Of a stretch of DNA of 64,000 nt, positions 1 to 64,000 are shown piece after piece. A program made the translations under genes and the position numbers. Each line of letters begins with the position of its first letter. The stretch's first letter is position 1. The DNA lies in contig NZ_CP007542.1 in NCBI RefSeq assembly GCF_000478825.2, positions 1,054,001 to 1,118,000 of the forward strand, in the 5' to 3' direction. The stretch is from Synechocystis sp. PCC 6714. Its GTDB lineage: Bacteria > Cyanobacteriota > Cyanobacteriia > Cyanobacteriales > Microcystaceae. The notes under the pieces were generated by a model that saw only the letters and a program-made list of their open reading frames with translations, was not told the DNA's origin and did not search any database.

Positions 1-51
1 TAACGATTTGTAAAGGCTTTTCTGAAAAAATCTAGTCCGAGCCTTGTCAAT

Positions 52-65
52 GGTTCAATTGAACC
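52..65. promoter_or_regulatory. Perfect 14-bp palindrome upstream of dnaE
   Basis: The sequence GGTTCAATTGAACC is a perfect dyad about 185 bp upstream of the dnaE start. It could be an operator for a dimeric regulator, or chance. The rest of positions 1-249 shows no gene and no convincing promoter. Confidence 0.3.
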
Positions 66-249
66 GGTAGCCTCATGGTTGATAAAATTAGAACAAATAC
101 ACGAAATATTTAAAAGATTTCCCCAGGTATCTTGGAGATAGGCGAATGCCTTCGTTTTTCATTTGGCCCATCCTGGTTTGGGTGAAATTTAGACAATGGC
201 CTCCAGGGCAAAGGGTTTATCATGGGGGTCTGTTGTTGAACTGCTAGCC

Positions 250-2913
250 ATGTCCTTCGTCGGTCTTCATATCCATAGTGACTATAGCCTTCTAGATGGG
301 GCTTCCCAATTACCGGCCTTGATTGACCGGGCCATTGAGCTGGGCATGCCGGCGATCGCCTTGACGGACCATGGGGTGATGTATGGGGCGGTGGAGTTGC
401 TGAAAGTCTGCCGGGGCAAACCGATTAAGCCTATCATTGGCAACGAAATGTATGTAATCAATGGTGATATTGAAATCAATAAGCGTCACCGTCGTTTTCA
501 TCAGGTAGTTTTAGCGAAGAATAATCAGGGCTACAGAAATTTAGTTAAACTCACCACCATTTCTAACTTGAAAGGTATTCAAGGCAGCGGTATTTTTGCC
601 CGACCTTGTATTAACAAAGAGTTGCTAGAGCAGTATAGGGAAGGTTTAATTGTCACCAGTGCCTGTCTGGGGGGAGAAGTGCCCCAAGCTATTTTAAAAG
701 GTGATCTGGGTCATGCCCGTAAGGTAGCAAAATGGTATAAAGATTTATTTGGTGATGACTACTATCTGGAAATTCAAGACCACGGTTCAGTGGAAGATCG
801 TTTGGTTAATGTTAACCTGGTCAAAATTGCCCAAGAGTTAAGTATCAAAATTGTTGCTACTAACGACTCCCATTTTATTTCTTGCAACGATGTAGAAGCC
901 CACGACGCTCTCCTTTGCATTCAAACGGGCAAGTTAATTACCGAAGAAAAAAGATTACGCTACAGCGGTACAGAGTATCTTAAATCTGCCGAGGAAATGC
1001 ACTTGCTCTTTCGGGATCATTTACCGGATGAAATTATCGAAACAGCGATCGCCAACACTCTAGAAGTAGCTAATAAAGTTGAACCCTACAGTATTTTAGG
1101 GGAACCCCGCATTCCCCATTACCCTATTCCCCCCAACCATAGCCCCGAAACCTATGTGGAAGACATTGCCTGGGATGGTCTGTTAGAACGGTTGAAATGC
1201 CGAGAGAGAAGCGATATTCCTGCGGTGTACAAAGAGCGTCTGGAATATGAATTAAGAATGTTAGAAAAAATGGGTTTTTGCACCTATTTTCTTGTAGTTT
1301 GGGACTACATTAAATATGCTCGAGACCATGGCATCCCCGTTGGGCCAGGGCGGGGCTCAGCGGCGGGATCTTTAGTGGCCTATTGCATGAGAATTACCAA
1401 TATTGATCCGGTACACCATGGTCTTTTATTTGAAAGATTTTTGAATCCAGAGCGAAAATCTATGCCTGACGTAGATACGGATTTTTGCATCGATCGCCGG
1501 GATGAAATGATTGAGTATGTCACCCGAAAGTATGGGGAAGATAAAGTTGCTCAAATTATTACTTTTAACCGCATGACCTCTAAAGCGGTGCTTAAAGATG
1601 TGGCTAGGGTATTGGATATTCCCTACGCAGAATCAGACAAAATGGCCAAAATGATTCCTGTTTCCCGGGGTAAGCCAGCCAAATTAAAAGTGATGATTTC
1701 TGACCAAACCCCTGAACCTCAATTTAAATCCCGTTACGACAACGAACCCTGGGTAAAAAAATGGATTGACATGGCAATTCGCATCGAGGGCACCAACAAA
1801 ACTTTCGGTGTCCATGCTGCTGGGGTGGTAATTTCATCAGAACCACTGGATCAAATTGTCCCGTTGCAAAAAAATAATGATGGGGCTGTAATTACCCAAT
1901 ATTACATGGAAGACGTGGAAGCCATGGGTCTTTTGAAAATGGACTTTTTGGGCTTGAAAAACTTGACCACATTGCAACGGGCAGTGGAGTTGATAGCAGA
2001 AAATAAGGGAGTGCAACTGGATTTAGACGATTTGCCCTTACAGGAGCGTAAAGCCCTGCAAATTCGAGCTCGCAATGGTTCTAAAAAGTTACCTGATGAC
2101 GTTAAACAAACCCACAAATTATTGGAAGCGGGGGATTTGGAGGGGATTTTTCAGTTGGAATCCCAAGGCATGAAACAAATTGTGCGGGATCTCAAACCTT
2201 CGGGCATTGAAGATATTTCCTCCATTCTAGCTTTGTATCGCCCTGGACCATTGGATGCGGGACTAATTCCCATCTTTATTAATCGTAAACACGGTCGGGA
2301 AGAAATTTCCTATCAACATAAACTTTTAGAACCAATTTTGAATGAGACCTACGGTGTTCTGGTCTACCAAGAGCAAATCATGAAAATGGCTCAGGATTTG
2401 GCTGGTTATTCCCTAGGGGAAGCGGATCTACTGCGGCGAGCCATGGGAAAAAAGAAAGCTGAAGAAATGCAAAAACATCGGGCGAAATTTGTCGACGGTT
2501 CCACTAAAAATGGAGTTCCTTCCCGCATAGCTGAAAATTTGTTTGACCAAATGGTTAAGTTTGCGGAATATTGCCTCAGCTTTGACGCCGAAATTTTAAC
2601 CGTTGAATACGGTCCATTATCCATTGGTAAAATTGTTGGCGAAGAAATTAATTGTTCTGTGTACAGCGTTGATCCCCAGGGTCGGATTTATACCCAGGCG
2701 ATCGCCCAATGGCATGACCGGGGAGTGCAGGAAGTGTTTGAATATGAATTGGAAGATGGTTCGGTGATTCGGGCTACCCCTGACCACCGTTTTTTGACTA
2801 CCGATTATGAACTATTGGCGATCGAGGAAATTTTTGCCCGGCAAATGGATTTGCTAACCTTAACGAACCTCAAGCTTGAAAATCTGGCTACTTTGCCCAT
2901 TACGTCAGGGTAA
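250..2913 (+). CDS. dnaE: DNA polymerase III alpha subunit, N-terminal half with split intein N-fragment
   Basis: This is the N-terminal half of the replicative polymerase catalytic subunit. Residues 1-774 are the extein: a PHP domain starting [16 protein letters not shown], then the C-family polymerase core with the acidic PDVDTDF motif. Residue Cys775 (codon 2572-2574, after KFAEY) begins a 113-residue N-intein ([14 protein letters not shown]) with the block B motif TPDH. By analogy with the PCC 6803 split intein, the protein trans-splices to a DnaE C-half encoded elsewhere. The ATG at 250 was chosen over an upstream ATG at 196 because [13 protein letters not shown] is the conserved start and gives the expected 774-residue extein. 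The intein tail ([16 protein letters not shown]) differs from the roughly 123-residue PCC 6803 fragment I remember and is shorter. The stop lies 2 nt from the stop of the convergent gene. Confidence 0.96.
352..359. repeat. HIP1 octamer GCGATCGC (representative of many copies)
   Basis: The octamer GCGATCGC, often inside GGCGATCGCC, recurs throughout the window in genes and spacers, for example here and near 2700, 9304, 13074, 17275, 24603, 34844, 46581 and 56031. HIP1 is the characteristic over-represented palindrome of Synechocystis and many other cyanobacteria. Its core CGATCG is the probable target of the C5 methyltransferase at 30692-31960. Confidence 0.9.
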
Positions 2914-49946: not shown

Positions 49947-50828
49947 CTAGCCAATGACATTAAAAACACATTGGTCTGTTTTGATCATGGTGGGAAAAGT
50001 CTTGAAAATCATTGTGCAGGACTTTACATATTGCTGGGCCCATCCTTGGGCGGCTTCTATTTGCTCCGGGGTTAACTTATCTTCTTTAGAACCTTTATAG
50101 CTTAGTTTAACGCTCTTTTTATCCACTTCAAATTGGGCAAACCATTCCCCTTTTGGCTGGGTTGACTGGAGATACCGACCAGCCATGGTATTACCGAGAT
50201 AATGATTACCCAAATTGCCTAAATGCTCGAAAGTTAACAATAAATCCTCCACACTCAGACCATTGGGTAAAGGAGATTGATTCGTCACTGCCCGATTAAC
50301 AGAGTTTGTGGCACCAACTTGGGCAACATTAGTTCCACTTTCCGTCACCTTTTTCAATGCCAATTTTTCTGGGTTAAAACCAATATCAAATCGAGTTTGG
50401 TCATTGTACTGGGCATCAGTCAACTTTGCTCCGGCCAAATCCGCCCCCGTCAATGAAGCTCCCTGTAAATAAGCCCCTTCAAGGTTGGCTCTGGTCAACA
50501 CAGCCCCCACAAAAATAGCCTCTTCTAAGTGGGTTCCCCGCAAATTAGCCTTGAGCAAAAAAGTTTTGAGTAAAGATGCCCGTTTAAGGTTGGCCTCTTC
50601 GAGATTAGCCCCGGACAGGTCAGCACTGTTGAAATAGGCCTCTTGGAAGTTACAGCCCTGTAAATTTGCCCCCCGTAGGTTAGCTTCACCAAAGTCTGAG
50701 CCGCTGAAATCTGCCCCCACCAAACTAATACCGTGAAAATCAATGCGCCGTAGGGCCAAATTCTGAAAGTTGCGTTTTCCTCCCTGGTACTGACTGAGGA
50801 TTGTTTGGACTTGACTATTATCTACCAT
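49947..50828 (-). CDS. Pentapeptide-repeat protein
   Basis: A 293-residue protein. Roughly residues 25-130 are pentapeptide repeats of A(D/N)LxX type (ADFSGSDFGEANLRGANLQG, then ANLEEANLKRASLLKTFLLK), forming a right-handed quadrilateral beta-helix. The C-terminal ~130 residues are a separate domain without a recognised name. The ATG at 50828 (MVDNSQVQTILSQ) is preferred over a TTG at 50849. Function unknown; the gene precedes the ABC ATPase by 40 nt on the same strand. Confidence 0.85.
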   Translation of the reverse strand: MVDNSQVQTILSQYQGGKRNFQNLALRRIDFHGISLVGADFSGSDFGEANLRGANLQGCNFQEAYFNSADLSGANLEEANLKRASLLKTFLLKANLRGTHLEEAIFVGAVLTRANLEGAYLQGASLTGADLAGAKLTDAQYNDQTRFDIGFNPEKLALKKVTESGTNVAQVGATNSVNRAVTNQSPLPNGLSVEDLLLTFEHLGNLGNHYLGNTMAGRYLQSTQPKGEWFAQFEVDKKSVKLSYKGSKEDKLTPEQIEAAQGWAQQYVKSCTMIFKTFPTMIKTDQCVFNVIG

Positions 50829-50950
50829 CAGAATTTTTTCCGTTGCCAAGGTTACTGGTCAATCACAATTGTCTTTATCCAGTTTAACGAACTGCGTCAC
50901 CAATCTTTTAAAAATTTCCGTTATCAGTCTTGAATCGCCTAAAGCTTAAC

Positions 50951-51958
50951 TTAAAAAGGGGAATTTTTTGTTAGGCACAAGCTAATTGACGCCACCGTAG
51001 TTAACAATAAACCACTGCCAAACAATTGCCCGGCTAGATGTCGAGCCGAATCAAACACTTTTGCTTGCTCAACTTCCACTAACAAGACAAAACGATATGC
51101 GGGCAACCAACGATAAACGCCTAAAACAGGAATTTGATTATGATTCAAATACATAGCTTGGCCACTTTCTGTTCCTAAGCCTCTATCAATGCCATAACTT
51201 TCCAATCTAGGAATTTGGTTGTTATTCTTGTCATTATTTTTCCCATTCTGCCCCTGAGAAAAGTTGTTGCTGACAATGGTATTAGTGGTTAAGGATAGTC
51301 TTCCGACTAAATAACTTTCCATAATCGTCGCTAATTCCTTGATCTGTTCTGTTGGGACGATGGATTGACCCATTAATTGGTCAAGGTCAGATAAGTTCAA
51401 ATCTATGGTCAGCACCCCCACCCTTTTTTCCGACTGGTTGAGGAGGGGGGTCGCCAGGGTAATGGCTGGCATTTGGTTAATAGTGGACTGGTAAAAGTTA
51501 GGGATAGCCTTATCAATATTTTCTAACTTAAAGTAAGTTGTAGTATTTTGTAAGGGCTGATATTGCCCTTCTCGGTCTGGATCGGTGGAAAAAATTACCA
51601 TGCCATTGTTGGTAATTAAAGAGGTGGCAAGACGTTGCTGTCTTTGGCTAAAATACTGATAAAAATAACGGTAAGCTTCTTGATACTCCACACTATTATT
51701 CAATTTTTTACCTAGCAAAATATTGGCATTCTTTCTGACTTCAAAATTCTCTAGATCCGCTTTAAAATCAGTTTTTAATTGGTCAAACCAATGATCTAAT
51801 TGCTCGGCTTTGAGTTCTGAGACTTGTTCCAAGCTCTCAAAGGTAGGTTCAACTCTGGCTTGGCGCAGGGTGATGTAGGTGGAGAAAGCAATCAAACTAG
51901 TCCAAAATAAACAAGCCAAAATCAAGTAGCTTAGGAAACGGCGTCGCCAACGTTGCAT
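50951..51958 (-). CDS. Membrane dCache-type sensor lacking an output domain
   Basis: A 335-residue protein with a transmembrane helix at about 9-31 (LSYLILACLFWTSLIAFSTY), a ~260-residue extracytoplasmic region resembling a double Cache domain (LITNNGMVIFSTDPDREGQY, then LATPLLNQSEKRVGVLTIDL), and a second helix near 312-330. It ends six residues later. Related cyanobacterial sensors continue into HAMP and kinase, cyclase or phosphatase domains; here nothing follows, and the next 100 bp hold no continuation in any frame. It starts 7 nt after a solute-binding lipoprotein gene, so the two are almost certainly co-transcribed and may act together. Confidence 0.75.
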   Translation of the reverse strand: MQRWRRRFLSYLILACLFWTSLIAFSTYITLRQARVEPTFESLEQVSELKAEQLDHWFDQLKTDFKADLENFEVRKNANILLGKKLNNSVEYQEAYRYFYQYFSQRQQRLATSLITNNGMVIFSTDPDREGQYQPLQNTTTYFKLENIDKAIPNFYQSTINQMPAITLATPLLNQSEKRVGVLTIDLNLSDLDQLMGQSIVPTEQIKELATIMESYLVGRLSLTTNTIVSNNFSQGQNGKNNDKNNNQIPRLESYGIDRGLGTESGQAMYLNHNQIPVLGVYRWLPAYRFVLLVEVEQAKVFDSARHLAGQLFGSGLLLTTVASISLCLTKNSPF

Positions 51959-51965
51959 GGGCTTC

Positions 51966-53357
51966 CTACTTCCATTGACGAAAAATATTAGTTATTTTCT
52001 CTATAGCCTGATCTGTCGCCTTTTCAGGGGTTAATTTCTCAGTAGCAACGGCGTAAATGGCCTGCCCCCAGATATTCTGAGCTAAAACTTCACTATAGGC
52101 TGGGTTGTCCACCACATAGGAACTACGGGCATTGGCAAATTGGGTGATAGCCACGGAAATATGGGGATCCTTTCCATTAGACCAAAATTCACTCTCGGTG
52201 ATCGCCGGCATAACGGGTAAAAAGCGGCCCTGGGCCCCTTGTAAATAGGTTTCCAAATTTTCCGGCTCGATTAGGAAAGCGACAAGACTTTTAGCCTCTT
52301 CCAGGCGATCGGTCTCCGCCAGAATGCCGATTTGTTTAACGGAAGTTACATAGCGCATGGGAGTGTTATTGGGCTTATTAGGCCAGGGAATTGTCCGCAT
52401 CCGCTGAAAATAGTTAACTTCGTCTCCCCTTTGGGAGCCGGGGATGGACAAAGAACCGTTGGCTGTCATCAAAGCGCCATTACTCAAAAAATTAATATTA
52501 TTGTCTGGGTCTCCCCATTCTGTGGCATTGGGGGGAACAAATTTGTTTAGATAAGGAGCGGTGTAAGCTTCCAGAGCCCTAATGATGCCCTGGCGAACCT
52601 GGGGATCATCCAAACGAAGGCTACCCTGTGCATCTAGAAGTTCCACGTCATAGGCTTCCAAAAACTGCTCAAACACCGTAAAAGTGTCCGTTGCCACCAT
52701 AGACATTGGCAAACCAATGGCATAAATATCACTCACACCTTGGTTCCTGAGAGTATTCTGGGCCGTTTCCCATAGGCGCCAAAAACTTTCCCATTCTTTG
52801 GGCAGATTGCCCCCATCAACACCGGCTTGGATTAGTAAATCTTGCCAATAGTGAATATATGTTGTTTGTTGAGAAATGGGCACTGCATAATAGGAACGTT
52901 TTTTTGTTTGGTTGTTGAAATAGTAAACATTTTTGAGTGCTTCAGGGAAATATAACTGTTTGATCGGCTCAATAATGCTAGAAACATCAGCTAATTTTCC
53001 TTGCCAAGCTAGCTGGGGCAATAATACCAAGTCAATGCTATAACTATAGATAATGTCAGGAGGATTGCCAGCTTTCATGGCGTTTTCCACTTGTTGTACT
53101 AAATCTTTTTCACTAAAAAAAGTTATTTGGACATCAGTTTCATTCTCGGCTTTCCAGGCATTAACTGAGGCTTGAATTGCTTCCGTTTCCTCCGGATAAT
53201 ATCCTTCACTCCACCAGACATTTAGTACATTTTCATTGGCGTTAGATAAAATAGTATTAACTTGTCCATAGCGGCAGCCAACTAAACTAAGGGAGCTAAA
53301 CGTGACTAGGCAGATGCCTAGGGAAAAGGACAACAACTTTGGCAACGGTTTGTACAA
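51966..53357 (-). CDS. Extracellular sugar-type solute-binding lipoprotein
   Basis: A 463-residue family 1 (MalE/UgpB-like) binding protein. It has a lipoprotein signal with the lipobox LVGC (Cys28). Family features are VLNVWWSEGYYPEETEAIQA at the start of the mature fold, DVQITFFSEKDLVQQVENAM, PPDIIYSYSIDLVLLPQLAW, and SLVAFLIEPENLETYLQGAQ near the end. No ABC permease or ATPase is adjacent. The co-transcribed neighbour is a dCache membrane protein, so it may present a ligand to a sensor rather than feed a transporter. Confidence 0.85.
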   Translation of the reverse strand: MYKPLPKLLSFSLGICLVTFSSLSLVGCRYGQVNTILSNANENVLNVWWSEGYYPEETEAIQASVNAWKAENETDVQITFFSEKDLVQQVENAMKAGNPPDIIYSYSIDLVLLPQLAWQGKLADVSSIIEPIKQLYFPEALKNVYYFNNQTKKRSYYAVPISQQTTYIHYWQDLLIQAGVDGGNLPKEWESFWRLWETAQNTLRNQGVSDIYAIGLPMSMVATDTFTVFEQFLEAYDVELLDAQGSLRLDDPQVRQGIIRALEAYTAPYLNKFVPPNATEWGDPDNNINFLSNGALMTANGSLSIPGSQRGDEVNYFQRMRTIPWPNKPNNTPMRYVTSVKQIGILAETDRLEEAKSLVAFLIEPENLETYLQGAQGRFLPVMPAITESEFWSNGKDPHISVAITQFANARSSYVVDNPAYSEVLAQNIWGQAIYAVATEKLTPEKATDQAIEKITNIFRQWK

Positions 53358-53432
53358 AATATTGAAACTAGTTAATTAATAATTGATGGAAAAGATAAAA
53401 ATTGAACAAACTTAAGGGTAGCTTTATTAAGC

Positions 53433-54503
53433 TTACCAAGTAGCAAAGCCCCATAGCCAAAAGGGTAAGGTGGCAAATAATGCCAAGGAACTCAACCCCA
53501 AAGAAGTTACCACCAAATCCCTATCTAAATCATAGGCCTCCGCCAATACTAAAGTAGCGAAAGCAGAGGGCATTGCAGATTGCAACACCAATACTAGGCA
53601 AGAAGGTCCACTAAATCCCAAACTAGTCAGTGCCATAGCAATAAGTAAAGGGACTAAAAACATTTTAATTGAGACTGCGCTGAAAGCAATCTTGATATTA
53701 CCCCAGGAGTCAAGCTGTTGCAGCCGCATGCCCATCAACACCAAAGCAGTCATTATAACTGACCAGGCAAACCACCCTAAACAAATATCTAACCAATCAG
53801 GAAAAGTCACTAGTCTCAACATTAAACCCAGAACAAAAGCAATTAGGCTAGGGTTTTTAATTAAAATTGCTAAATTATCCTTGAGCCAACGAATAATTCC
53901 GATCAAAATTAATCTTAAAGCACTACTTTTTTTTGCCTGCTTTGTAAAAGAATGGGATGGATTTGAGGAAAGTATATTCAGTTTGTTCTGCTTCAATAAA
54001 ATGCTACGGTTAGCTAAAATTGATCCAAGGCCATAGGCGGCTAAAAAAGTTCCTAAAAGATCATATAAAATGGCCCAACCAAAATATTCTGGTCCCAGTT
54101 GGGGAAGCAGTAGAATAATCGGAAAGCCAATATAACCAGTATTGCCAACTGTACTGACTAGGGTGAAGCTAATTTGGGAATCGGAGGAAAAGCTAGGGCG
54201 ACGGGTTTGCAGCCAGAGCCAGCTGAGAAAAAGTCCGAGCAAAATTGCACACCAAGCAACAATAGGAGATAGCCAAACAGCCCCCGACAGGTTTGCTTTA
54301 CGAATAAAATTGATTATTCCTAGGGGAACCCCTAGCCAAAAAAGAAATTTCCCCAAATACTGAGCAGTGCTTGGGGAAAGCTGGACTGATTTTAAGATTT
54401 TACCCTGTAATTTTTCTAAGCAAAAGCTCAATGTAACGCCAATTAAAATAGCTACGGTAATGGGAAAATAAAGACGAATAATAATAGTAACCAGGGAATT
54501 CAT
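53433..54503 (-). CDS. AEC-family transporter
   Basis: A 356-residue permease of the auxin efflux carrier family. About ten hydrophobic helices are seen, with the N-terminal ITVAILIGVTLSFCLEK and the family segment VSTVGNTGYIGFPIILLL (usually G-N-x-G-x-x-G/x-P). Members export organic acids such as malate or malonate in other bacteria; the substrate here is unknown. It lies 17 nt after the LarA-like gene and 75 nt before the solute-binding gene, in the same direction. Confidence 0.85.
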   Translation of the reverse strand: MNSLVTIIIRLYFPITVAILIGVTLSFCLEKLQGKILKSVQLSPSTAQYLGKFLFWLGVPLGIINFIRKANLSGAVWLSPIVAWCAILLGLFLSWLWLQTRRPSFSSDSQISFTLVSTVGNTGYIGFPIILLLPQLGPEYFGWAILYDLLGTFLAAYGLGSILANRSILLKQNKLNILSSNPSHSFTKQAKKSSALRLILIGIIRWLKDNLAILIKNPSLIAFVLGLMLRLVTFPDWLDICLGWFAWSVIMTALVLMGMRLQQLDSWGNIKIAFSAVSIKMFLVPLLIAMALTSLGFSGPSCLVLVLQSAMPSAFATLVLAEAYDLDRDLVVTSLGLSSLALFATLPFWLWGFATW

Positions 54504-54520
54504 TAAGTCAAGGGAAATGG

Positions 54521-56653
54521 CTAACGACAGATAATGAGTGGCTCTTGTAAAAAAGCAATATGCAGATCTTGAGATTTTTGATTATAGTATTTGCCATAGC
54601 TTATAGCTAAGTCCAAACATTTTTGGGGTGAATAATTTTTTAAATCAATGCCCCAAATGCCCAGCAAATTTATCCGTATATTTTTTCTTTTTAGTATATT
54701 TTTTAATAATGGAGGTAAATAGTTAGTTAGATCCGGATCAAGTTGAGCTAAATAATTCAAAACTTTTTGATTGTCAGTAGCAAGGAAAAATGTTTCAAAT
54801 TTATGTAATAGTTTTAAACACCGCAAAGCTCTTTGTCCCCCTTCCCCTAATCCTTCCGAGAGATGATGTTGTTGCCGTAGTTGCTCGATTTTATTAATTA
54901 GTGGGGGTAAATTTTGTTCAGTAAGATAAATATTAAGCAATGCTTGAATCGATTGTCCTTCCTCGGTATAGTCATTGGCATAATTAGCCAAAGTAGCCTG
55001 TAGAAATTCCTTAGCATGGGTCTCATCCATGGATAGACCCCTCAGTTCTTGGATAATCAGGATTAAGTTGTTGATCATTACTAAAAAATCATCGATTTCA
55101 CTGGTGAGTTGTAGATGGTGAGTCCAGGCAGTCAAGACTTCACGGCGATAATTTTTTACAATCCCCATGGCACTGTCTAAGCTTTGGCAGGTATTTAATT
55201 CTTTTTCGAGCAAATTAATTCTTCTACTAACTAGTTTTTGCAATACATCTAATTGCTTTTTGGTTCCTTGATTACCAATACCACCATGGTTTTGTTCTTC
55301 TCGACAGGGATTAAATAATAGGGCGACCCTCTGGCGGGGGGTATCTGCTAAGAGGCAATTATCTTCGTCGTCCCACTCGCATAAATATTGCAATGCCCTT
55401 GCTCCAGCTAATATATCAGTGCCTTTTTTTTTGTCTGTGTCCACCACCAAGATATGAATTTTTTCTGGTAAATTGACTGTGCGACTTTCCTTGGCGATCG
55501 CCGTTAGGGCTTGGCGATTTTTATCCTTTTGTCCAAACCAAAAGCCATTAATGGATTGATTTTGCAAAGAAACAATAGAAAAGCCGAGGGGATAGGTGCG
55601 GGCAATGTGGGGGGTCTGGGTTAAGAGGGACTGATTAAGACATTCTGCTAGGTAATCCAAAGTATGAACAAAGGCATTTTCTGTTTTTTTTCTGTTTGTG
55701 GGGGAATGGAGTAAAATTTTAGTACTATGGCTGCGACGGATAGCCTGGATGTTAGCTAATCCTACCACCAACATCTTATGTAAACCACCGCTCCCGCCCC
55801 TTATTTCGTAGGGGTGCAATTCCGTATCCCCCGCCACAATAGTGAGGTGATGTTGCCATAATTCCTGGGGCAAGGAAAGTTCGTATGTCTGAGTTGGAGT
55901 TAAGTTATCAAGAATTTCTACTGTGTTTTGTTTGTCTAAATTAATTTGATTACGATTAATTATATTGAGCTGATCTTTTATCAATAAATTTTCGTCCAGG
56001 TCAGACAAACTTTCATCACTAAATCCGGCGATCGCCTGGTGGATAGTATGTTCTAGCTGGGCAATAAAACTATTGATATTAGCAAAACTATGGGTGGAAA
56101 TTTCCCCAAGATTTACTTGGTCTTGGACCTTAATTATAGCCTGAGGTTCCAATGGAGCTATTGTGGTTTGTTGACGAATAACAATCCCAGAAGAAACAAT
56201 CGTTTTATATCGTTCCCTGCCTAAATATTGACTAATACTTTCCTCTGTCATAGGGGGATGAGTGCCCAAGCCAAATAATATTGTCAATTGCAAATTGCTG
56301 TGGCTTTTTTGAAGACAAAAAATTGCATCTAAGAGTAAATGAACTGCAATAGCTGTTCGGGTATTATCGGGTAAAACCAACAATAACTTCGCCGGGAGAT
56401 AGCTATTTATTAAGCCTAATTTATCTAAAACTATTTGAAGATAATCAATGCAATTTGCCAAAACTTCAGCAGAACTAAAATCTGCATACAAATCTTTTTG
56501 AGCTTGTAAAAAATAAGCATTGGCTGGTAAATTCAAACTCAATTCTGGAAAGCTTTGCAAAGTAATCTGTTGTTGTTGTCCATCCCGTCTTTGCCCTGAC
56601 CCCACTCTCCGGGGGGCGATTTGACAATAATCTGGCAGGGGGAGCATTGCCAT
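54521..56653 (-). CDS. LarA/DUF2088-like protein with extra C-terminal domain
   Basis: A 710-residue protein. The first ~430 residues recall the nickel-pincer racemase LarA: LLVLPDNTRTAIAVHLLLDA, then FGLGTHPPMTEESISQYLG, then AGDTELHPYEIRGGSGGLHK. The last of these matches the E-P-H ... F-S-G-G-x-K region, although the residue aligned with the pincer-bearing lysine may be His unless the alignment shifts by one. The remaining ~280 residues are helical and unrecognised. larB, larC and larE are not in the window. It follows the RsbW-like gene by 94 nt and precedes the AEC transporter by 17 nt, suggesting a hydroxy-acid connection. Confidence 0.7.
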   Translation of the reverse strand: MAMLPLPDYCQIAPRRVGSGQRRDGQQQQITLQSFPELSLNLPANAYFLQAQKDLYADFSSAEVLANCIDYLQIVLDKLGLINSYLPAKLLLVLPDNTRTAIAVHLLLDAIFCLQKSHSNLQLTILFGLGTHPPMTEESISQYLGRERYKTIVSSGIVIRQQTTIAPLEPQAIIKVQDQVNLGEISTHSFANINSFIAQLEHTIHQAIAGFSDESLSDLDENLLIKDQLNIINRNQINLDKQNTVEILDNLTPTQTYELSLPQELWQHHLTIVAGDTELHPYEIRGGSGGLHKMLVVGLANIQAIRRSHSTKILLHSPTNRKKTENAFVHTLDYLAECLNQSLLTQTPHIARTYPLGFSIVSLQNQSINGFWFGQKDKNRQALTAIAKESRTVNLPEKIHILVVDTDKKKGTDILAGARALQYLCEWDDEDNCLLADTPRQRVALLFNPCREEQNHGGIGNQGTKKQLDVLQKLVSRRINLLEKELNTCQSLDSAMGIVKNYRREVLTAWTHHLQLTSEIDDFLVMINNLILIIQELRGLSMDETHAKEFLQATLANYANDYTEEGQSIQALLNIYLTEQNLPPLINKIEQLRQQHHLSEGLGEGGQRALRCLKLLHKFETFFLATDNQKVLNYLAQLDPDLTNYLPPLLKNILKRKNIRINLLGIWGIDLKNYSPQKCLDLAISYGKYYNQKSQDLHIAFLQEPLIICR

Positions 56654-56747
56654 GGAAAAATAAGAAATAATAGCGAAAGCGCCGAAGCAATTAAAGGCAA
56701 AATTGAAAAACTTTAATCTATCTGTCTATCTATCCAACACTGACTTG

Positions 56748-57179
56748 CTAATCATTGTCGGCAGAATCAAGGTTCATAACTAGACAACTAATATTTTTAT
56801 CGCCCTTAACTTCATAAGTAAATTCATCCACACTTTGTAATGCTAAAAAAATTCCTAATCCGCCGATGGGCCGCTCTTCCGCCTCTAGACTAAGAATTGA
56901 TTGATCAAACTGGCGATCGCGGGGATCATAGGCAATACCAGTATCCACCATGGTGACGGTCAATTTATTTTCATCTGCTTCCAATTCTATGCTAATTTGA
57001 TTATGCCCTGGCGTTTGAGCATAGCCATAATTAATGATATTAGTAACCAATTCGTCCACCGCCAACCTTAACTTATAGGCTCTTTTTTTCGGTAATCCCA
57101 CTGCTTGGGCCTGGCTTAAGATATGCTTGCCAATGCTATTTAAAGCATCTAAGTCAGCAGGAAAAGTTAAAATACTCAT
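56748..57179 (-). CDS. RsbW/SpoIIAB-like anti-sigma-factor serine kinase
   Basis: A 143-residue GHKL kinase of the partner-switching type. The N box is RLAVDELVTNIINYGYA, G1 is VTMVDTGIAYDPRD and G2 is PIGGLGIFLALQS. It matches the position and size of PCC 6803 Slr1861, reported to phosphorylate the antagonist Slr1856. The ATG at 57179 (MSILTFPADLDALN) was chosen because it lies 4 nt after the icfG stop; an upstream start at 57203 would overlap icfG. The sigma-type target is unknown. Confidence 0.92.
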   Translation of the reverse strand: MSILTFPADLDALNSIGKHILSQAQAVGLPKKRAYKLRLAVDELVTNIINYGYAQTPGHNQISIELEADENKLTVTMVDTGIAYDPRDRQFDQSILSLEAEERPIGGLGIFLALQSVDEFTYEVKGDKNISCLVMNLDSADND

Positions 57180-57183
57180 GGCA

Positions 57184-59082
57184 TTAATTACGATAAACAG
57201 CAATCATGGTAATGTCATCAAACTGAATGGAATTATCAATATGACTAATTAATTCCTGCTTGATTACGGTTAAAATTTCTGTCCTTGCTGAGAAATTTTC
57301 CGTTAACATTGTCATTAGTCGTTGGCGACCAAAAAATTCTTTATTTGGGGATCTTGCATCGGTAACACCATCAGTATAGCCAATTAACATATCCCCAGTA
57401 TCGATTGCCAAGCTATTGATGGTAAAAGTGGATTGGGGCATCATGCCCACCGCTGGACCTGTGGATTTTAATTTATGTTTAATGCCCTGAGAATTTAAAA
57501 TAAAAACTGGCTCATGGCCGGCATTGATATAACTTAAGTTGCCGTTCTTAATATCAATGACCCCGAAAAATAAGGTAGCAAACATCACCATATCCCCATG
57601 TTCAGTGGCAATGTAATCATTGGTGAGTCGCACTGCATTTAAAAATTGAACAATAACTGTTTTTTTGCCGTCATCATCGTCATTATCACTAGCCCTACAC
57701 TTATAGTTAGCATCCCGGATACAGGTATCCCCAGGCATAGTTGCCCCTGAAAATACCCTTAACAGGCTGCGAAATAGGCCCATAAACATGGCGGCGCCTA
57801 CCCCTTTATCACAGACATCACCAATGACGATCGCCAAATAATCATCCCCCAATAGAAAAGCATCATAAAAATCACCAGAAACAGACCGCGCTGGCTCAAA
57901 AACTGCATTTATCTCCCACTGGGGTAGATTAGGTAAACTAATAGGTAGAAAGTTTTGTTGAATTTGTCGGCCTTTTTCTAGCTCTAGACGATTCATCCCA
58001 TCCTTAATTTCCTGGGCAATCAAGGTTTTGATTTGATTTCTCATGTGGATGAAACTATTGCCCAAAATACCAATTTCATCCTCACCTCGTACTGTGATGG
58101 GATAGTCCAAATTTCCCTCAGCCATGGCCCGGGAAGCGCTGGTTAATTGCAAAATAGGAATAGTACTGTGATGAATAACCATCCAAGAAGAAACGGCAAC
58201 AATAATACCAATCACCACCACTAATAGGTAACCAACTCGATTGATGTCGAAAATAGCCCCTTCAATACTGGCCTCTGAATCCTCTAAAATAATGCCCCAA
58301 GTTTTAGATCCCCGTAAATGGATGGGGGAAAGGTAGGCAAACTGACCTTCGCTGTAAATGATGCCATCGCGGTTATTGAGAAGCTGGTTAACGAGGGGAG
58401 AGTCCTGTTTATTTTCTAGATTAGTATATTTTTTAATACTTGTGTCCGCATAAATATAGCCCTGGTAATTAACTAATAAAATTCTGTCCAGCTCTGCATC
58501 TTTGGCTATGTTCTGCACTAATTCAGCAATAACTGGGAGAGGTAAACATTCAACAATAATGCCAATCTGGACCTTGGAACCGGGGCTAAGAATCGGCATA
58601 ATCAGACAATCCTTGCTCTCATTGTAATCTTTGCCGGGAAACAATCGGTTTAAATGTCTATGTGCCTGTGCTACTTCCTCTGACCAACGCTTGAGAGGTA
58701 AAGGCTTGGTGGAATGATAGCCATCACTGCTGGCAACTATTTTTCCCTCCCGGTTAACTACGAGAAAGAAGCCCCGCCATTGGTGAAACTTAATAAATTC
58801 ATTTAAAAAAAAACGAGCTTGCTCAGCTTGAAAATTGACTATTTCGGGTTGGGAGGCGACAAAGGCAGTATTTTCTTGGCGCTCTTCATCTAATCGGCGT
58901 ATCATCTGAGCGGTCAGCTTGGCATGGCCTTCCAAATCTTTTCTGGCAATCTTTTTTAACTGTCTTTCTGTGTATAAATCCAGCAAAAAAATCCCTCCCA
59001 AAGTAGAGGGAATGAGGCAGAGTAGGAGGAGCCCAACAATGCGAAACCGAATTGATTTCATGAAAGATTGAATCAGTTTCAT
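57184..59082 (-). CDS. icfG: IcfG: membrane-bound SpoIIE/PP2C-type protein phosphatase
   Basis: A 632-residue sensor phosphatase. It has a transmembrane helix at about residues 12-32, an extracytoplasmic dCache-like domain, a second helix at about 280-303, HAMP (ASRAMAEGNLDYPITVRGED), and a SpoIIE-type PP2C domain from about residue 385 (EPARSVSGDFYDAFLLGDDY, then AIVIGDVCDKGVGAAMF, and LIGYTDGVTDARSP). In PCC 6803, IcfG is needed to coordinate glucose and inorganic-carbon metabolism and dephosphorylates an anti-sigma antagonist. The kinase gene follows directly and an antagonist precedes it. Confidence 0.95.
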   Translation of the reverse strand: MKLIQSFMKSIRFRIVGLLLLCLIPSTLGGIFLLDLYTERQLKKIARKDLEGHAKLTAQMIRRLDEERQENTAFVASQPEIVNFQAEQARFFLNEFIKFHQWRGFFLVVNREGKIVASSDGYHSTKPLPLKRWSEEVAQAHRHLNRLFPGKDYNESKDCLIMPILSPGSKVQIGIIVECLPLPVIAELVQNIAKDAELDRILLVNYQGYIYADTSIKKYTNLENKQDSPLVNQLLNNRDGIIYSEGQFAYLSPIHLRGSKTWGIILEDSEASIEGAIFDINRVGYLLVVVIGIIVAVSSWMVIHHSTIPILQLTSASRAMAEGNLDYPITVRGEDEIGILGNSFIHMRNQIKTLIAQEIKDGMNRLELEKGRQIQQNFLPISLPNLPQWEINAVFEPARSVSGDFYDAFLLGDDYLAIVIGDVCDKGVGAAMFMGLFRSLLRVFSGATMPGDTCIRDANYKCRASDNDDDDGKKTVIVQFLNAVRLTNDYIATEHGDMVMFATLFFGVIDIKNGNLSYINAGHEPVFILNSQGIKHKLKSTGPAVGMMPQSTFTINSLAIDTGDMLIGYTDGVTDARSPNKEFFGRQRLMTMLTENFSARTEILTVIKQELISHIDNSIQFDDITMIAVYRN

Positions 59083-59209
59083 GGGGATGATTTACCGAGG
59101 ATGGTTCGAGTTCCTGCTAACGCGATCTCCGCTCTATTTTGACGATGTTTACTCCTCCTGGGGAAACGAGACCTAGCTAAGTTGAATTAGGCTGAATGGG
59201 TTTCGGTTT

Positions 59210-59536
59210 TTAGGCCGTAAAGTCGTAACTATCCACCATGTGAAAACTTTGGTGTAATCCAGTTTGCTCGATGGTGTCGTTTACCATTTCCTGGGTTCCC
59301 ACCAAGAAAATTTCCACCCCCGTTCCCATCTTTTGTTTGGCAAACACTAAAACCCTGAGCCCCGCACTGGACATGTATTCCAATTGATCCATAAATAAAA
59401 CCAATTTGGTCGCGTTAGCCTCGGCGGCGGCTTCGATTTTTTCCTTGAACAATGGAGCAGTACCCCCATCCAACTCGCCAATCAGGGTTAATTTTGCTTG
59501 ACCATTAATGGTCTCCAATTCAATGCTAAAAGCCAT
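59210..59536 (-). CDS. Anti-sigma-factor antagonist (STAS), Slr1859-like
   Basis: A 108-residue STAS domain protein of the SpoIIAA/RsbV type. The phosphorylation motif is YMSSAGLRVL with Ser57 as the likely site. It lies 44 nt after glgX and 127 nt before icfG on the same strand. It is a second, distinct antagonist in the cluster (compare 61711-62043), so two proteins may be controlled by one kinase/phosphatase pair. Confidence 0.92.
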   Translation of the reverse strand: MAFSIELETINGQAKLTLIGELDGGTAPLFKEKIEAAAEANATKLVLFMDQLEYMSSAGLRVLVFAKQKMGTGVEIFLVGTQEMVNDTIEQTGLHQSFHMVDSYDFTA

Positions 59537-59580
59537 GGTTTAAAGGGATAATTGAACAGAATTAGGTTTACTTTAGCCGG

Positions 59581-61704
59581 TTATTTAGCGATTAGGATAA
59601 CCACACTTCGATCGCCAATGAGCAAGGACGACTGGGATTCGAGGGGGGGTTCCTGGCCGGGGGCATGTATATCTTCCGGGGGCTGGGCTCCTGTGTTGGC
59701 AAAAACGTGCCAAGCTGTGCCCACTGGAGGAGCTGGCAGTTCAAACCAGAGACTCTCGTAGTGCATATTCATAGCCACATAGATTTGGTTATCTTTAACT
59801 CGGCCACCTTTAGCGTGTTGACCACAAAGCATAAAAGCTAGAACCCGGCCATCGGAGGACCAATCGGCATGCCAAGCCTTGACCCCATGCCAACTAATAT
59901 CGGGAAATCCCACACCAAGGTAATCGCAGTTTTGGAAATGTTCACTATTGCGCAACACGGGATGGGCTAAGCGGAAAGCAATGCAGTGTTTGACAAACCG
60001 AAACCAATCCTGGTTTTGTTCGACTAAATGCCAATTGAGCCAATTCAAAGGGGAATCATGGCAATAGGTATTATTATTGCCCCCCTGGGTTTTGCCCATC
60101 TCATCCCCCATCAACAGCATGGGCACCCCCTGGCTCACCAACAAAATGGCGATTGCATTCCGCATTTGCCGAGCCCGGAGTTTAAGGATATCGGGGTTAT
60201 CGGTAGCACCTTCCACCCCACAGTTCCAGCTGTAGTTGTCATTGGCTCCATCATTGCCATTTTCCCCATTGGCATAGTTATGTTTGCCGTTATAGGCTAC
60301 TAAATCTGCCAGGGTGAAGCCGTCGTGGGCGGTCACAAAATTGATTGAAGTGGAGGGCGGTCGCCCGGCTCCCCGGTAAAGGTCTGGGGAACCCTGTAGC
60401 CGTTGGGCCATTTCCCCAATCACTCCCGCATCCCCTTTGATAAATTTTCGCACCGAATCTCGGTATTTTCCATTCCACTCCGCCCAGCGGCCATAACTGG
60501 GAAAAGACCCGACTTGGTATAAGCCACCTGCATCCCAGGCTTCAGCAATCAATTTAGACCGGGCCAAAATAGGGTCAAAGGCGAGGGTTTCCAATAGAGG
60601 TGGATTGGCCAAAGGATAGCCCCAGGGATCCCGACCCAAAATGGAGGCCAAATCAAAGCGAAAACCATCAATGTGAAATTCCGCTGTCCAGTAGCGCAGA
60701 CAGTCCAGCACCATGCCCCGCACAATGGGGTTATTGCAATTGAGGGTATTGCCGGTGCCACTAAAGTTGAAATAGTAACCCTCCGGGGTAAGCATGTAAT
60801 AGGTTTTGTTATCCAATCCCCGAAAGGAAATGGTGGGACCCCTTTCATTGCCCTCTGCCGTATGGTTGAACACCACGTCCAAAATGACGGAAATGCCTAC
60901 TTTATGCAGTTCCTTGACTAGGTTTTTCAACTCATCAATCTGCATGCCAAATTTGCCAGTGGCCGCGTAACCTGCTTTGGGAGCAAAAAAATTAACGGTG
61001 CTATAGCCCCAGTAGTTAACTAAAAATTCCCCCGTTTCTGGATGGTAACGGCTATGTTCAAATTCATCAAACTCAAACACCGGCATCAATTCAACGGTAT
61101 TAATGCCCAATTCCTGTAGATAGGGAATTTTGGCCAGAATGCCGGCAAAGGTCCCCCGGTGATTTTCCTTTACCCCAGAGGAAGGGTCTTTGGTGAAACC
61201 CCGCACATGCATTTCATAAATGACCATGTCTTCGAGGGGAACATCCAAGGGGGAGTCGTTTTCCCAATCAAAATCGTCAAAGCTGAGGCGTCCCCGATGT
61301 TGGTAGATATCGTCCCAATTAGGTTGGGTCCCCCAAACATCCCGGCCACTGACAACTTTGGCGTAGGGATCAAGAAGTACTTTACTGGGGTCGAACCAAT
61401 GGCCCTGCTGGAAGTTATTGGGCCCTTCCATGCGATAGCCGTATTCCAGATTTTCGAAATCCAGGTCAAACACCACCATGCAATAGACATTACCAATGCG
61501 GAAGGATTCTGGAAAAGGAATCTCCACAAAAGGCTGGGGAGCCCGCTTCTCGAATAGTACTAGGGTGCAAGCGGTGCTATGGCTAGAGTAAATAGAAAAG
61601 TTGACCCCCCCTGGCACAATGGTGGCTCCGAAAGGAAAGGGCTGGCCGCAGCGGAGCTGATAACCGTTGCTGGTGTGGGTTGGATGGACATCAATGCGTT
61701 CCAT
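59581..61704 (-). CDS. glgX: Glycogen debranching enzyme GlgX (isoamylase type)
   Basis: Cleaves alpha-1,6 branches in glycogen breakdown. The 707-residue protein has an N-terminal CBM48 (CGQPFPFGATIVPGGVNFSI) and a GH13 barrel with its conserved regions: DVVFNHT, GFRFDLAS with the nucleophile Asp, LIAEAWD with the acid/base Glu, and FVTAHDGF. It lies between two STAS antagonist genes, 6 nt after one and 44 nt before the other, so glycogen breakdown and the icfG switch share a transcript. Confidence 0.95.
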   Translation of the reverse strand: MERIDVHPTHTSNGYQLRCGQPFPFGATIVPGGVNFSIYSSHSTACTLVLFEKRAPQPFVEIPFPESFRIGNVYCMVVFDLDFENLEYGYRMEGPNNFQQGHWFDPSKVLLDPYAKVVSGRDVWGTQPNWDDIYQHRGRLSFDDFDWENDSPLDVPLEDMVIYEMHVRGFTKDPSSGVKENHRGTFAGILAKIPYLQELGINTVELMPVFEFDEFEHSRYHPETGEFLVNYWGYSTVNFFAPKAGYAATGKFGMQIDELKNLVKELHKVGISVILDVVFNHTAEGNERGPTISFRGLDNKTYYMLTPEGYYFNFSGTGNTLNCNNPIVRGMVLDCLRYWTAEFHIDGFRFDLASILGRDPWGYPLANPPLLETLAFDPILARSKLIAEAWDAGGLYQVGSFPSYGRWAEWNGKYRDSVRKFIKGDAGVIGEMAQRLQGSPDLYRGAGRPPSTSINFVTAHDGFTLADLVAYNGKHNYANGENGNDGANDNYSWNCGVEGATDNPDILKLRARQMRNAIAILLVSQGVPMLLMGDEMGKTQGGNNNTYCHDSPLNWLNWHLVEQNQDWFRFVKHCIAFRLAHPVLRNSEHFQNCDYLGVGFPDISWHGVKAWHADWSSDGRVLAFMLCGQHAKGGRVKDNQIYVAMNMHYESLWFELPAPPVGTAWHVFANTGAQPPEDIHAPGQEPPLESQSSLLIGDRSVVILIAK

Positions 61705-61710
61705 AGTGGC

Positions 61711-62043
61711 CTAAGAAAATGCGTTTTTGCCTTCGGCAAGGGTGGGACAAATCGAAAAAAAGTCGAGAAAACCAGTCACAGCCATGGTGTCCAGCAGTTC
61801 TTCCGACAGACCGACTAAAACGAGCTGGGCCGAGTTGCCTTTGGTCTGGCGATAGAGGTATAGCAAAAGCCGGAGCCCAGCACTGGACATGTAGGGCACT
61901 GCGGTCATGTCTAAAAGTATTTTTGCTCCTGGTTCCGCTAGGGGCAGAATCACTTCATGGATTTTCGGGGCCGTGTTGGCGTCCACTTCCCCGCTAAGGG
62001 TGACAACGGTAATGTCTTCCTGTTGATTAATTTGAATATCCAT
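61711..62043 (-). CDS. Anti-sigma-factor antagonist (STAS), Slr1856-like
   Basis: A 110-residue STAS protein. The site YMSSAGLRLLLYL places Ser54 as the phosphoacceptor, which agrees with what I remember reported for PCC 6803 Slr1856 (phosphorylated by Slr1861, dephosphorylated by IcfG). It lies 5 nt after the epimerase-like gene and 6 nt before glgX. Confidence 0.93.
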   Translation of the reverse strand: MDIQINQQEDITVVTLSGEVDANTAPKIHEVILPLAEPGAKILLDMTAVPYMSSAGLRLLLYLYRQTKGNSAQLVLVGLSEELLDTMAVTGFLDFFSICPTLAEGKNAFS

Positions 62044-62048
62044 GGGGC

Positions 62049-63872
62049 TTAGGCAGTGGGGACTAAACGAACTTTGATTTTGACCCGTTCTTGGCTGTCG
62101 GGTAAGGTCACAGTTAAGCCCTGGGCATCGAAATTTTCATAGGGTTTGCCGTCAATTTCCACACTGGCGATCGCCACACTGCCGGGGGGAAGAATATCGG
62201 GGGATACCCTTAGAATGCCGTCGGCGAAACCATTGGGTAAGGGCTTAAAGTAAAAATCCATGGGGTGCTTGGTGATCAAAAAGTTGGTATACACCGCCGC
62301 CAAATAACAAAGCTCGAAGGAATGGTAACCGCTCATGGAATGGCTACCTTTAGCCCGCTCATTGCCCCCTGCCAGGTAAGGAATGCCGTTGGCGAGTACA
62401 TTGAAATAAATACCCCCATCTTCCAAATCCAGGAACCAGGCATTGTAAAAGGCCGCTGCTTCCCGACCGTGGCGATGGTATTCCCCGTCAGTCAAAATGC
62501 CACCCATGATCAGGTACGCCAGAATGGCTTGTTCCTGTTGCCACCAGGCTTTGCGGTCATGCCAAACAAATTGATGGCAACCACTATGGTTATTAAGTAA
62601 CCGTTCCACCACATCGTACCAACCACCCCGCTGTTGGTCACTGCCCACCGCCGGCATCAAGTCGGCAATTTTTTTGGCCAGCTCCACATACTTGTCCTTG
62701 GGCTTGAGGCTATTCATCCGCATCAAATTCCAGGCAATTTTGAGATTATGGCCCACCACTGCCCGATTTTGTTGCCAGCCCCAGGTGGTGTCGTGGCTCC
62801 AGTCTTCCTAAAAACGCTCTTGGACAAAGGGACTATGGTCGTAGTCAGGGAAATATTTCTCAATGGTGTCGAAGGTATACTCCAACATATCGGCGTATTT
62901 TTCTTCCCCGGTGGCAAGCCAAAGATTAATCAAATAGGCCGGAGCATGATCCCCGACGGAGTTCCAGTTTTTCCGGGCCCGATTTGCCCCGAGGGATTCA
63001 CTGCGGGGATCCAACATCAACGGATCTAGATGGGAAAAATAGCCGCCATATTCGCTTTTGTCCAGAAAGAATTTGTCGAATAGCTTAATAGTTTGTTCTG
63101 CGTCATGGAGAATACGGCGATCGCCGGTGCAACGGTAGGTTTGGATCGGCCCCGCCAGAGCATAAATCTGTTCGTAGGCGGGAATGGCATCATAGTCATC
63201 GCCAAATTCCGAAGCAAAGATTTTTTGTTCCTTTTCCCCCTGCACATCGATGGCGTGGTACCAGTAGACAATATCTTCGTCCTTATCAACAAAGCGCATA
63301 TGCTCCCGCAGGTATTCCGTGCCCTTTTCCGCCGCTTCCAGAAACTGATCCTCTCCGGTCATCATAAACGCGGTGGCAAAGCCATAAACCAACCGGGAAA
63401 TGGTGTCGGTTTCCTGGCGAAAATTCACAGCAGACCGTTGACCACTGACGGAAAGGTCAGTCCGATAATGGCGATAATCGATGGCATCCTCACCAAACTG
63501 GGCCTTCACATAAAATTTGCCCAGGGCGTAAACCTGTTTAATCCACCAATCCTGCTTTTCAAAAACATATTCCTCAATTTTTTTGCCGGCGAAAACCACT
63601 TGTTTGCCGTCAAAAATATCGCTGTCCGGATAAAAAACACCGTAAACAAATAGAAATCTGCCAGGGGTTAACCAGCTGCCCATGGTGGCGGTGGCATCGA
63701 TATAGGCTTCATCAAAGTTTTGGATCACCTTGGCATAGGCCATGGGGCTGAGCTTGACCTGAAACTCCTGACCAGCGGAGGTTTTGAGACCAAAAGTGCC
63801 TCCTTGTTGGTCGTAACTTGTCACATAACCCGCAATCAGATCAGAAAAAGGAAAGTTAATTTTAGGACTCAT
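62049..63872 (-). pseudogene. N-acylglucosamine 2-epimerase-like gene interrupted by an in-frame amber codon
   Basis: Two open segments lie in one frame: MSPKINFPFSDLIAGYVTSY to SPFVQERF (63872-62811), a TAG at 62808-62810, then EDWSHDTTWGWQQNRAVVGH to the end (62049). Together they give about 607 residues of an (alpha/alpha)6-barrel protein of the AGE/cellobiose-epimerase type, with WNSVGDHAPAYLINLWLATG before the stop and ERAKGSHSMSGYHSFELCYL after it. The position matches Slr1855 of the icfG cluster. The start MSPKI is preferred over one at 63950, which overlaps the upstream gene. Either a recent nonsense mutation, a base-call error or a two-piece protein would explain this. Confidence 0.85.
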
Positions 63873-63906
63873 ATTGTTGATGCCACGGGAAGGCGGGAAA
63901 TATTTT

Positions 63907-64000
63907 TTAAGCTTCAATTTGCTCGATAAAGGTCTTGACAAATTGTTCAATCATGCCGGGATGTTTGCCGGTAATTAGATCGCCGTCAATTACCAACTCG
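63907..64000 (-). CDS. DJ-1/PfpI-family protein (C-terminal end only)
   Basis: The last ~31 codons of a gene that enters from outside the window: ELVIDGDLITGKHPGMIEQF then VKTFIEQIEA and TAA. The D-G-(D/N)-L-I-T-G-(K/R)-x-P pattern near the C-terminus is typical of PfpI/DJ-1 proteins. The order matches slr1854 next to slr1855 in PCC 6803. The nucleophile-elbow cysteine is off the window. Confidence 0.8.
   Translation of the reverse strand, partial: ELVIDGDLITGKHPGMIEQFVKTFIEQIEA

Follow-up and report, generated by a model that had tools for sequence, protein, structure and literature searches.

What is the function of the genes that follow icfG in Synechocystis, next to a well-known partner-switching operon for carbon control? 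This question is raised by the end of a 64,000-nucleotide stretch of the Synechocystis sp. PCC 6714 genome (3.74 Mb; contig C1, positions 1054001–1118000), which we call the window, where the genes of the icfG operon are followed by four more, coding for a LarA-like protein, an AEC-family permease, a solute-binding protein (SBP) and a short dCache receptor. The anatomy of this block, its conservation, the LarA fold and catalytic residues, and the presence of the LarB, LarC and LarE genes were computed here. Our results show that the four downstream genes form a cassette with its own history, separable from icfG, that its sensor gene is not truncated, and that the assignment of the LarA-like protein to the LarA family, as a divergent member, is well supported, in an organism for which a client of the nickel-pincer nucleotide (NPN) is being sought. 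We propose, with a probability of about one half, that the known icfG partner-switching operon is joined here by a separately evolved LarA/AEC/SBP/dCache sensing cassette, which would work by the steps set out below.

The separability of the cassette was analysed in 175 genomes of the phylum and 388 genomes of the order. The LarA-like query matched six of the former, one as a stop-riddled patch of 91 residues (G143), and the LarA-like alignment matched seven of the latter, one as a remnant of 32 residues (G239); both were dropped, as was an SBP fragment of 67 residues (G157). The LarA-like gene is thus intact in six genomes, G000 (the window genome), G014, G054, G076, G093 and G362, hereafter the cassette genomes. 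A plasmid search gave no relatives, and a scan of genome contigs, with 48 stretches, gave a single one, S. salina. The LarA and AEC genes are adjacent in all six cassette genomes, as are the SBP and dCache genes, and the four are contiguous in five; in G014 the two pairs lie more than 1 Mb apart. The IcfG query matched 13 of the 175 genomes at E≤1e-40, at full length with at least 78% identity only in G000, G076 and G093; in the remaining matches the alignment begins at residue 259. These three genomes share ten genes in an identical order, with the cassette directly after icfG, whereas no full-length IcfG stands beside the cassette in G054, in G014 or, to the contig end, in G362. In G054, the four-gene cassette is preceded by genes for cNMP-binding and ParA-like proteins, and G239 keeps an SBP and two dCache genes beside its LarA remnant and transposase pieces. 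Since the cassette occurs without a nearby icfG in G054 and G014, it is not an integral part of the icfG operon.

G362, which belongs to another genus, is informative in the other direction. On a 25.7-kb contig (C149), one strand carries its slr1852-like, PfpI, AGE, STAS, GlgX and STAS genes. The opposite strand has a CMD gene that shares 74% identity with its counterpart in the icfG operon, a gene of the glyoxalase family and the cassette (LarA-AEC-SBP-dCache). Genes for a response regulator (RR) fused to a PP2C phosphatase (RR-PP2C), an RR and a dCache-kinase come next. Genes for EthD/SnoaL, SDR and DUF4432 proteins lie between its slr1852-like and PfpI genes, and no IcfG frame was found in the 956 bp that remain of the contig after the last STAS gene (Slr1859-like). 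The icfG-operon genes, divergent from the LarA-like gene, lie about 3 to 14 kb from it. Proximity kept despite this rearrangement argues for a functional tie between the cassette and icfG, and in our reading their neighbourhood is not accidental. A preliminary description of this DNA had proposed that the downstream genes complete a fuller icfG system, to be checked by its conservation in other genomes: the association is conserved in G000, G076 and G093 and, rearranged, in G362, so in four of the six cassette genomes, but it does not extend to G054 and G014.

A different explanation sees the cassette as a metabolic passenger, driven by a promoter of its own and dedicated to the uptake or export and the racemisation of a minor organic acid, with no tie to partner switching. 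We consider this unlikely. The two genomes without a nearby IcfG fit it, as do the 94 bp between the kinase and LarA genes (the other spacers are 17 bp for LarA-AEC, 75 for AEC-SBP and 7 for SBP-dCache), and evolution has been faster in the cassette than in most core genes: between G076 and G093, the ratio of non-synonymous to synonymous substitution rates (dN/dS) is 0.09–0.24 in the cassette (0.21 for the LarA-like gene, 0.24 for dCache) and 0.04–0.15 in the core, with GlgX, the kinase and STAS at 0.04–0.07 and IcfG at 0.15. On the other hand, icfG-operon genes neighbour the cassette in two genera with differing orientation, the adjacency of SBP and dCache without an ABC permease looks like sensing, and in Synechocystis sp. 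PCC 6803 the genes slr1852 to slr1862 are named, in the accessible part of one report, as a single salt-repressed operon (PMC8670252). Scans for promoters (27 sites versus 26.9 in shuffles) and terminators (18 versus 17.6) neither split nor joined the block.

The assignment of the LarA-like protein rests on three lines of evidence. The Pfam family Lar_N matches the whole window protein with 30.5 bits (curated cut-off 23.3), and five of five members tested at E≤0.5 (best 8.7e-9). When the six LarA-like proteins were aligned with five LarAs by hhalign, a probability (Prob) of 88.2 was obtained (E 3e-6, 264 columns, 21% identity), while 40 column-shuffled controls reached at most 0.6. The residues on which LarA depends include a nickel-ligand histidine, two catalytic histidines and a DxTR motif. 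Taking as reference the L. plantarum plasmid LarA, which is near-identical to PDB 6C1W/5HUQ and numbered alike, D72, R75, H108, H174, K184 and H200 pair with D96, R99, H132, H280, K293 and H309, and these are invariant in all six LarA-like members; K184 is given as the NPN-tethering lysine in the accessible text of a 2024 paper (PMC11796402). The third line is structural. The members are 640–724 aa long, and the window protein has a helical insertion at about 462–600 plus a long loop. With the model led by the G054 protein, which is shorter, all ten Foldseek chains at E≤0.001 were LarA relatives (2YJG at 8e-6; the next, unrelated, at 0.086), 4NAR being counted among them through its match to LarA. 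In the VIA comparison of this model, nine LarA-family entries aligned end to end with Z 9.3–11.1 (5huq with 10.8 over 2..639) and two further LarA-like entries had Z 8.1 and 7.6, the unrelated rows having 7.6 or less. For both this model and that of the window protein, structural rows other than LarA, such as 9n0o on the helical insertion (Z 8.6), were left aside. A PDB sequence search with one LarA-like protein gave no match, and one with the profile gave an unrelated best hit (E 0.13) and the LarA relative 4nar at E 0.17. By hhalign, the comparison with three Lar_N proteins from G044, G016 and G013 reached Prob 14.8, and that of the C-terminal half alone with LarA reached Prob 0.4 and lower.

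Could such a protein have lost NPN catalysis and persist as a structural or regulatory relic? Its strong divergence, with the low identity over the hhalign match and the long insertions, and LarA K298, which pairs with R419 solely at a lowered alignment threshold, speak for this possibility; the six NPN and catalytic positions are nevertheless unchanged among members that are 33–37% identical to the G054 protein, and dN/dS is 0.21. We regard a relic as improbable.

The LarB, LarC and LarE proteins of PCC 6803 make NPN, and the cyanobacterial client of this cofactor is called unidentified in the available portion of the same paper (PMC11796402). All three genes are present in the five cassette genomes covered by our survey (G000, G014, G054, G076 and G093). 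Among the 175 genomes, 103 have LarB and 108 have LarC over the cut-off, compared with only six for Lar_N; most NPN makers show no LarA-family client here, with the proviso that the Lar_N search under-detects the family found in the window. Co-occurrence with LarB was considered as specific support and rejected, because G080 and G051 are the only genomes of the order and class listed as lacking it; G080 has LarC and LarE, and it also lacks the LarA-like gene. The LarA-like protein is a concrete candidate for an NPN client, in a narrow group only: with its gene intact in 6 of the order's 388 genomes, it cannot fill this role for most cyanobacteria. It offers, with a LarA fold, a candidate for the missing client, for which an E. 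coli co-expression system exists.

The remaining three genes point to transport and sensing. The AEC transporter family is TC 2.A.69. The permease matches Pfam Mem_trans with 80.9 bits (cut-off 25.7) and the NCBIfam subfamily TIGR00946 with 90.8 bits, below the cut-off of 246; a PDB search with it gave nothing at E≤0.1. The SBP has four solved relatives, sugar-type or generic SBPs, and the LVGC at its N-terminus is what we take to be a lipobox. The short dCache protein is 335 aa long, with hydropathy-predicted transmembrane (TM) segments at 7–31 and 311–330, and ends just after the second; dCache_1 scores 39.1 bits on it, against a cut-off of 45, and no HAMP, enzymatic or further Pfam domain was found. 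It had been described as a truncated sensor, which our results do not sustain, since the short two-TM form is conserved in its orthologues (333–338 aa in G076, G093 and G014; 319–371 aa in G054, G362 and G239). This conserved length and the dN/dS of 0.24 also led us to reject the idea of a pseudogene. Second dCache copies in G054 and G239 end shortly after HAMP, and that of G054, encoded near the cassette, likewise has no output domain.

The SBP and the receptor seem to form a pair. Among 17 full-length SBP homologues, the window's included, in the 175 genomes, 14 lie beside a dCache gene; of the other three, one is a tandem copy and two have no such neighbour. In the nine pairs outside Synechocystis and G054, the dCache partner is always a kinase or hybrid with HisKA; in G129 (contig C7) the ATPase part of the dCache-HisKA protein lies in the next frame, and in G172 the receptor is additionally fused to SpoIIE. 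Known SBP-dependent receptors include those of the LuxP/LuxQ and TorT/TorS type. In the cassette, too, the SBP gene lies beside that of a receptor with a periplasmic domain and there is no ABC partner, from which we infer an arrangement for sensing rather than for transport. Having no output domain, the short dCache receptor needs a signalling partner.

Which protein could be this partner? In five of the six cassette genomes, the SBP-dCache pair has a gene for a SpoIIE phosphatase no more than 10 kb away (the G014 copy is split in two frames). The most likely target of the pair is a phosphatase of the SpoIIE type, reached either by way of IcfG or by a pathway of dCache-kinase and RR-PP2C. The periplasmic part of IcfG matches dCache_1 below the cut-off in all cases (E 2.3e-8 in G076, 5.8e-7 in G093 and 0.005 in the window), and its profile matches dCache with Prob 90.3 when TM and HAMP are included and the short dCaches with 27.2. 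Between G076 and G093, the stretch of IcfG at about 58079–58979 is the most variable of the block, with 66% DNA identity in the 300-column windows starting at 58379 and 58679 and 76% in that at 58079, compared with 84–96% per window elsewhere, which suggests that the IcfG sensor domain has been replaced or has diversified. Signalling from the sensor pair to IcfG appears to us somewhat doubtful and a little less probable than the kinase route; what is left beside these two falls to independence or to something else.

According to the kinase route, the sensor pair reports to a dCache-histidine kinase/RR/RR-PP2C locus and not to IcfG, its place after icfG being a neighbourhood effect. This is a serious possibility, although short of an even chance. 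The window genome has such a locus at about 116–121 kb of contig C1 (L035:4161-8859), coding for a HisKA-RR-SpoIIE phosphatase, an RR and a dCache-histidine kinase. In both G014 and G362, the immediate neighbours of the SBP-dCache pair are orthologous to these genes over their full length (kinase 62% and 51%, RR 74% and 77%, RR-PP2C 53–55% and 51%, respectively), so that there are two plausible receivers, of which IcfG is just one. In G000 and G076, the locus occurs at a distance from the cassette, its Pfam domains having been checked on the G014 and G076 members, and dCache-kinase matches of this kind occur in all four cassette genomes of the genus Synechocystis. In contrast, G054 has the cassette but no dCache-kinase match, the RR-PP2C of G014 is split in two frames (L031:6730-8471; 401 + 134 aa) and possibly decayed, and the proximity of icfG-operon genes in four of the six genomes speaks for IcfG. 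We also tried to equate slr1983 with the RR-PP2C gene through a published polymorphism; the codons did not settle its identity, and a literature search gave nothing.

For PCC 6803, the correspondence follows gene order: if this matches, slr1862 is the LarA-like gene and slr1863–slr1865 are the other three cassette genes. A literature search found no mention of slr1862 by that name. According to the part of a recent study that is accessible, Slr1861 phosphorylates Slr1856, Slr1859 and Ssr1600 and, as an anti-SigC kinase, holds SigC, IcfG dephosphorylates Slr1856, and the phosphatase for the Ssr1600 branch of this SigC/Slr1861 switch is still unidentified (PMC12329169). Elsewhere, in a source likewise accessible in part, three point mutations are given as distinguishing all GT substrains from the PCC ones, and Tyr95Cys in slr1865 is among them (PMC10068330). 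The dCache protein is alone among the four cassette proteins in having a Tyr at residues 91–100 (Tyr92/Tyr96), and gene order together with these residues near the published Tyr95 makes slr1865 probably the dCache gene; the nucleotide 340 published for slr1865 does not fit the frame of the window dCache. The glucose-tolerant lineage may consequently carry a changed sensor.

We propose the following mechanism for the sensing cassette beside the icfG operon. The LarA-family enzyme, with NPN, would racemise or epimerise a 2-hydroxy acid or a sugar acid, and the AEC permease would move that acid or a relative of it across the membrane, in a direction that we infer, like the substrate, only provisionally. 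The SBP, presumably anchored by a lipid, would sample the periplasm for an acid or a sugar and dock on the short dCache receptor, which would pass the signal laterally to a partner that itself has a dCache-like domain, in a pathway ending in a SpoIIE/PP2C phosphatase. This partner may be IcfG (dCache-like-HAMP-PP2C) and/or the dCache-kinase acting on an RR-PP2C encoded elsewhere in the genome. The phosphatase would then reset the STAS antagonists and, via the Slr1861 kinase, sigma-factor use. For a link with glycogen breakdown, the one pointer is that GlgX lies in the operon. The chain in its most specific form, in which the protein at the slr1862 position uses NPN and its substrate or product, through SBP and dCache, sets an IcfG-type phosphatase and thereby SigC-dependent growth control, is quite unlikely to hold at every step. 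If it does, a nickel racemase would be wired into a sigma-factor partner switch, and Tyr95Cys in slr1865 would be a lesion in the sensor of the glucose-tolerant 6803 lineage; an action of the sensor pair on either IcfG or RR-PP2C would give the SigC/Slr1861 growth switch an input.

Several results weigh against our proposal. With TM and HAMP trimmed, the profile match between IcfG and dCache falls to Prob 16.6 (at most 1.5 in 30 column shuffles). In the six-frame genome search, Lar_N gave the G000 copy 20.7 bits, below the cut-off, and missed that of G014, and the NCBIfam lactate/malate racemase equivalogs were not reached by the LarA-like protein (24.1 versus 460, 30.4 versus 500 and 27.1 versus 462 bits). 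The AF2 models are of low confidence, with a mean pLDDT of 52.0 for the window protein and 59.8 for the model led by the G054 protein. For the window-protein model, the two best Foldseek matches were LarA-family proteins, but no match reached E≤0.001, and the LarA rows of VIA (Z 5.9–8.5) were tied with unrelated ones. The published 6803 operon, in the accessible part of its description, stops at slr1862, without the last three cassette genes (PMC8670252), and no SpoIIE gene is present in the 19 kb fetched around the G054 cassette.

The features of the block are listed below. As stated in the preliminary description, and as borne out by the reading of open reading frames and by Pfam, they share one strand, the minus, from the PfpI 3΄ end to 50951, with mostly short spacers, the icfG genes being followed by those for the LarA-like protein, AEC, SBP and sensor. 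GlcNAc_2-epim, two STAS, isoamylase/GlgX, HAMP-SpoIIE, HATPase_c_2, Lar_N, Mem_trans and SBP_bac_1 are above their Pfam cut-offs, and STAS antagonists, SpoIIE phosphatase and HATPase kinase are adjacent, as in a partner-switching operon. Upstream of PfpI, past the window edge, lie a CMD gene and a 188-aa slr1852-like gene. The epimerase, whose start by homology is ATG 63872 and not TTG 63950, is one unbroken 607-aa frame in G076 and G093; its in-frame stop in the window strain may reflect a pseudogene, a strain mutation or a sequencing error. Rfam gave nothing at gathering score over 50700–64000. A second type of partner-switching triad was seen in G080 (L072:7222-10279), with STAS-like, GAF-GAF-SpoIIE and kinase-like genes, GlgX and the cassette being absent from the 19 kb fetched.

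Features of the extended icfG block (window coordinates)
Feature	Position	Strand	Basis and remarks
PfpI/DJ-1, 3΄ end	63907..64000	-	whole gene 63907-64503, cut by window end; Pfam DJ-1_PfpI (L034:907-1503), gene order
AGE-family epimerase (slr1855-like)	62049..63872	-	in-frame TAG 62808-62810; Pfam GlcNAc_2-epim
STAS anti-sigma antagonist (Slr1856-like)	61711..62043	-	Pfam STAS 1.1e-25
GlgX glycogen debranching enzyme	59581..61704	-	TIGR02100 706.7 bits vs cut-off 640.9
STAS anti-sigma antagonist (Slr1859-like)	59210..59536	-	Pfam STAS 5.9e-21
IcfG: TM - dCache-like periplasmic domain - TM - HAMP - SpoIIE/PP2C phosphatase	57184..59082	-	Pfam, hydropathy
HATPase_c_2 anti-sigma kinase (Slr1861-like)	56748..57179	-	Pfam; start from homology to 143-aa frames in G076, G093
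Divergent LarA-family enzyme, 710 aa	54521..56653	-	Pfam Lar_N, profile alignment, model of G054 member
AEC-family (Mem_trans) permease	53433..54503	-	Pfam Mem_trans 8.7e-23
Orphan SBP_bac_1 solute-binding protein, lipobox-like N-terminus (LVGC)	51966..53357	-	Pfam 2.3e-21
Output-less dCache receptor, two TM (probably slr1865-like, from gene order)	50951..51958	-	Pfam dCache_1 7.7e-10, below cut-off

How does this block compare with known systems? It has the same families, in the described order, as the icfG operon of PCC 6803, whose published accounts, in their accessible parts, do not discuss the four downstream genes, bar slr1862 inside the salt-repressed operon (PMC8670252). IcfG is similar to the RsbU/SpoIIE-type sensor phosphatases, with a dCache-like-HAMP-SpoIIE architecture, and differs from them in that a second, output-less dCache protein and an SBP are encoded downstream. 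As in LuxP/LuxQ, TorT/TorS and the cyanobacterial pairs of SBP and dCache-histidine kinase, the SBP gene of the cassette stands beside a receptor gene, and the cassette has no ABC permease or ATPase, although its receptor is without HAMP, kinase or other output domain. The LarA-like protein resembles the L. plantarum LarA (5HUQ/6C1W), the malate racemase (6D6Z/7S91) and the single-histidine LarA-like protein (9Q3J/9Q3K) in its end-to-end fold, judged from the G054 model, in the six paired residues and in the presence of LarB, LarC and LarE in the same genomes. It departs from that family in its length (640–724 aa instead of about 430, with the helical insertion and the long loop), in scoring below every equivalog cut-off, and in its neighbours: in the loci read, no larBCE genes adjoin it, and it is linked instead to AEC and to the SBP-dCache pair.

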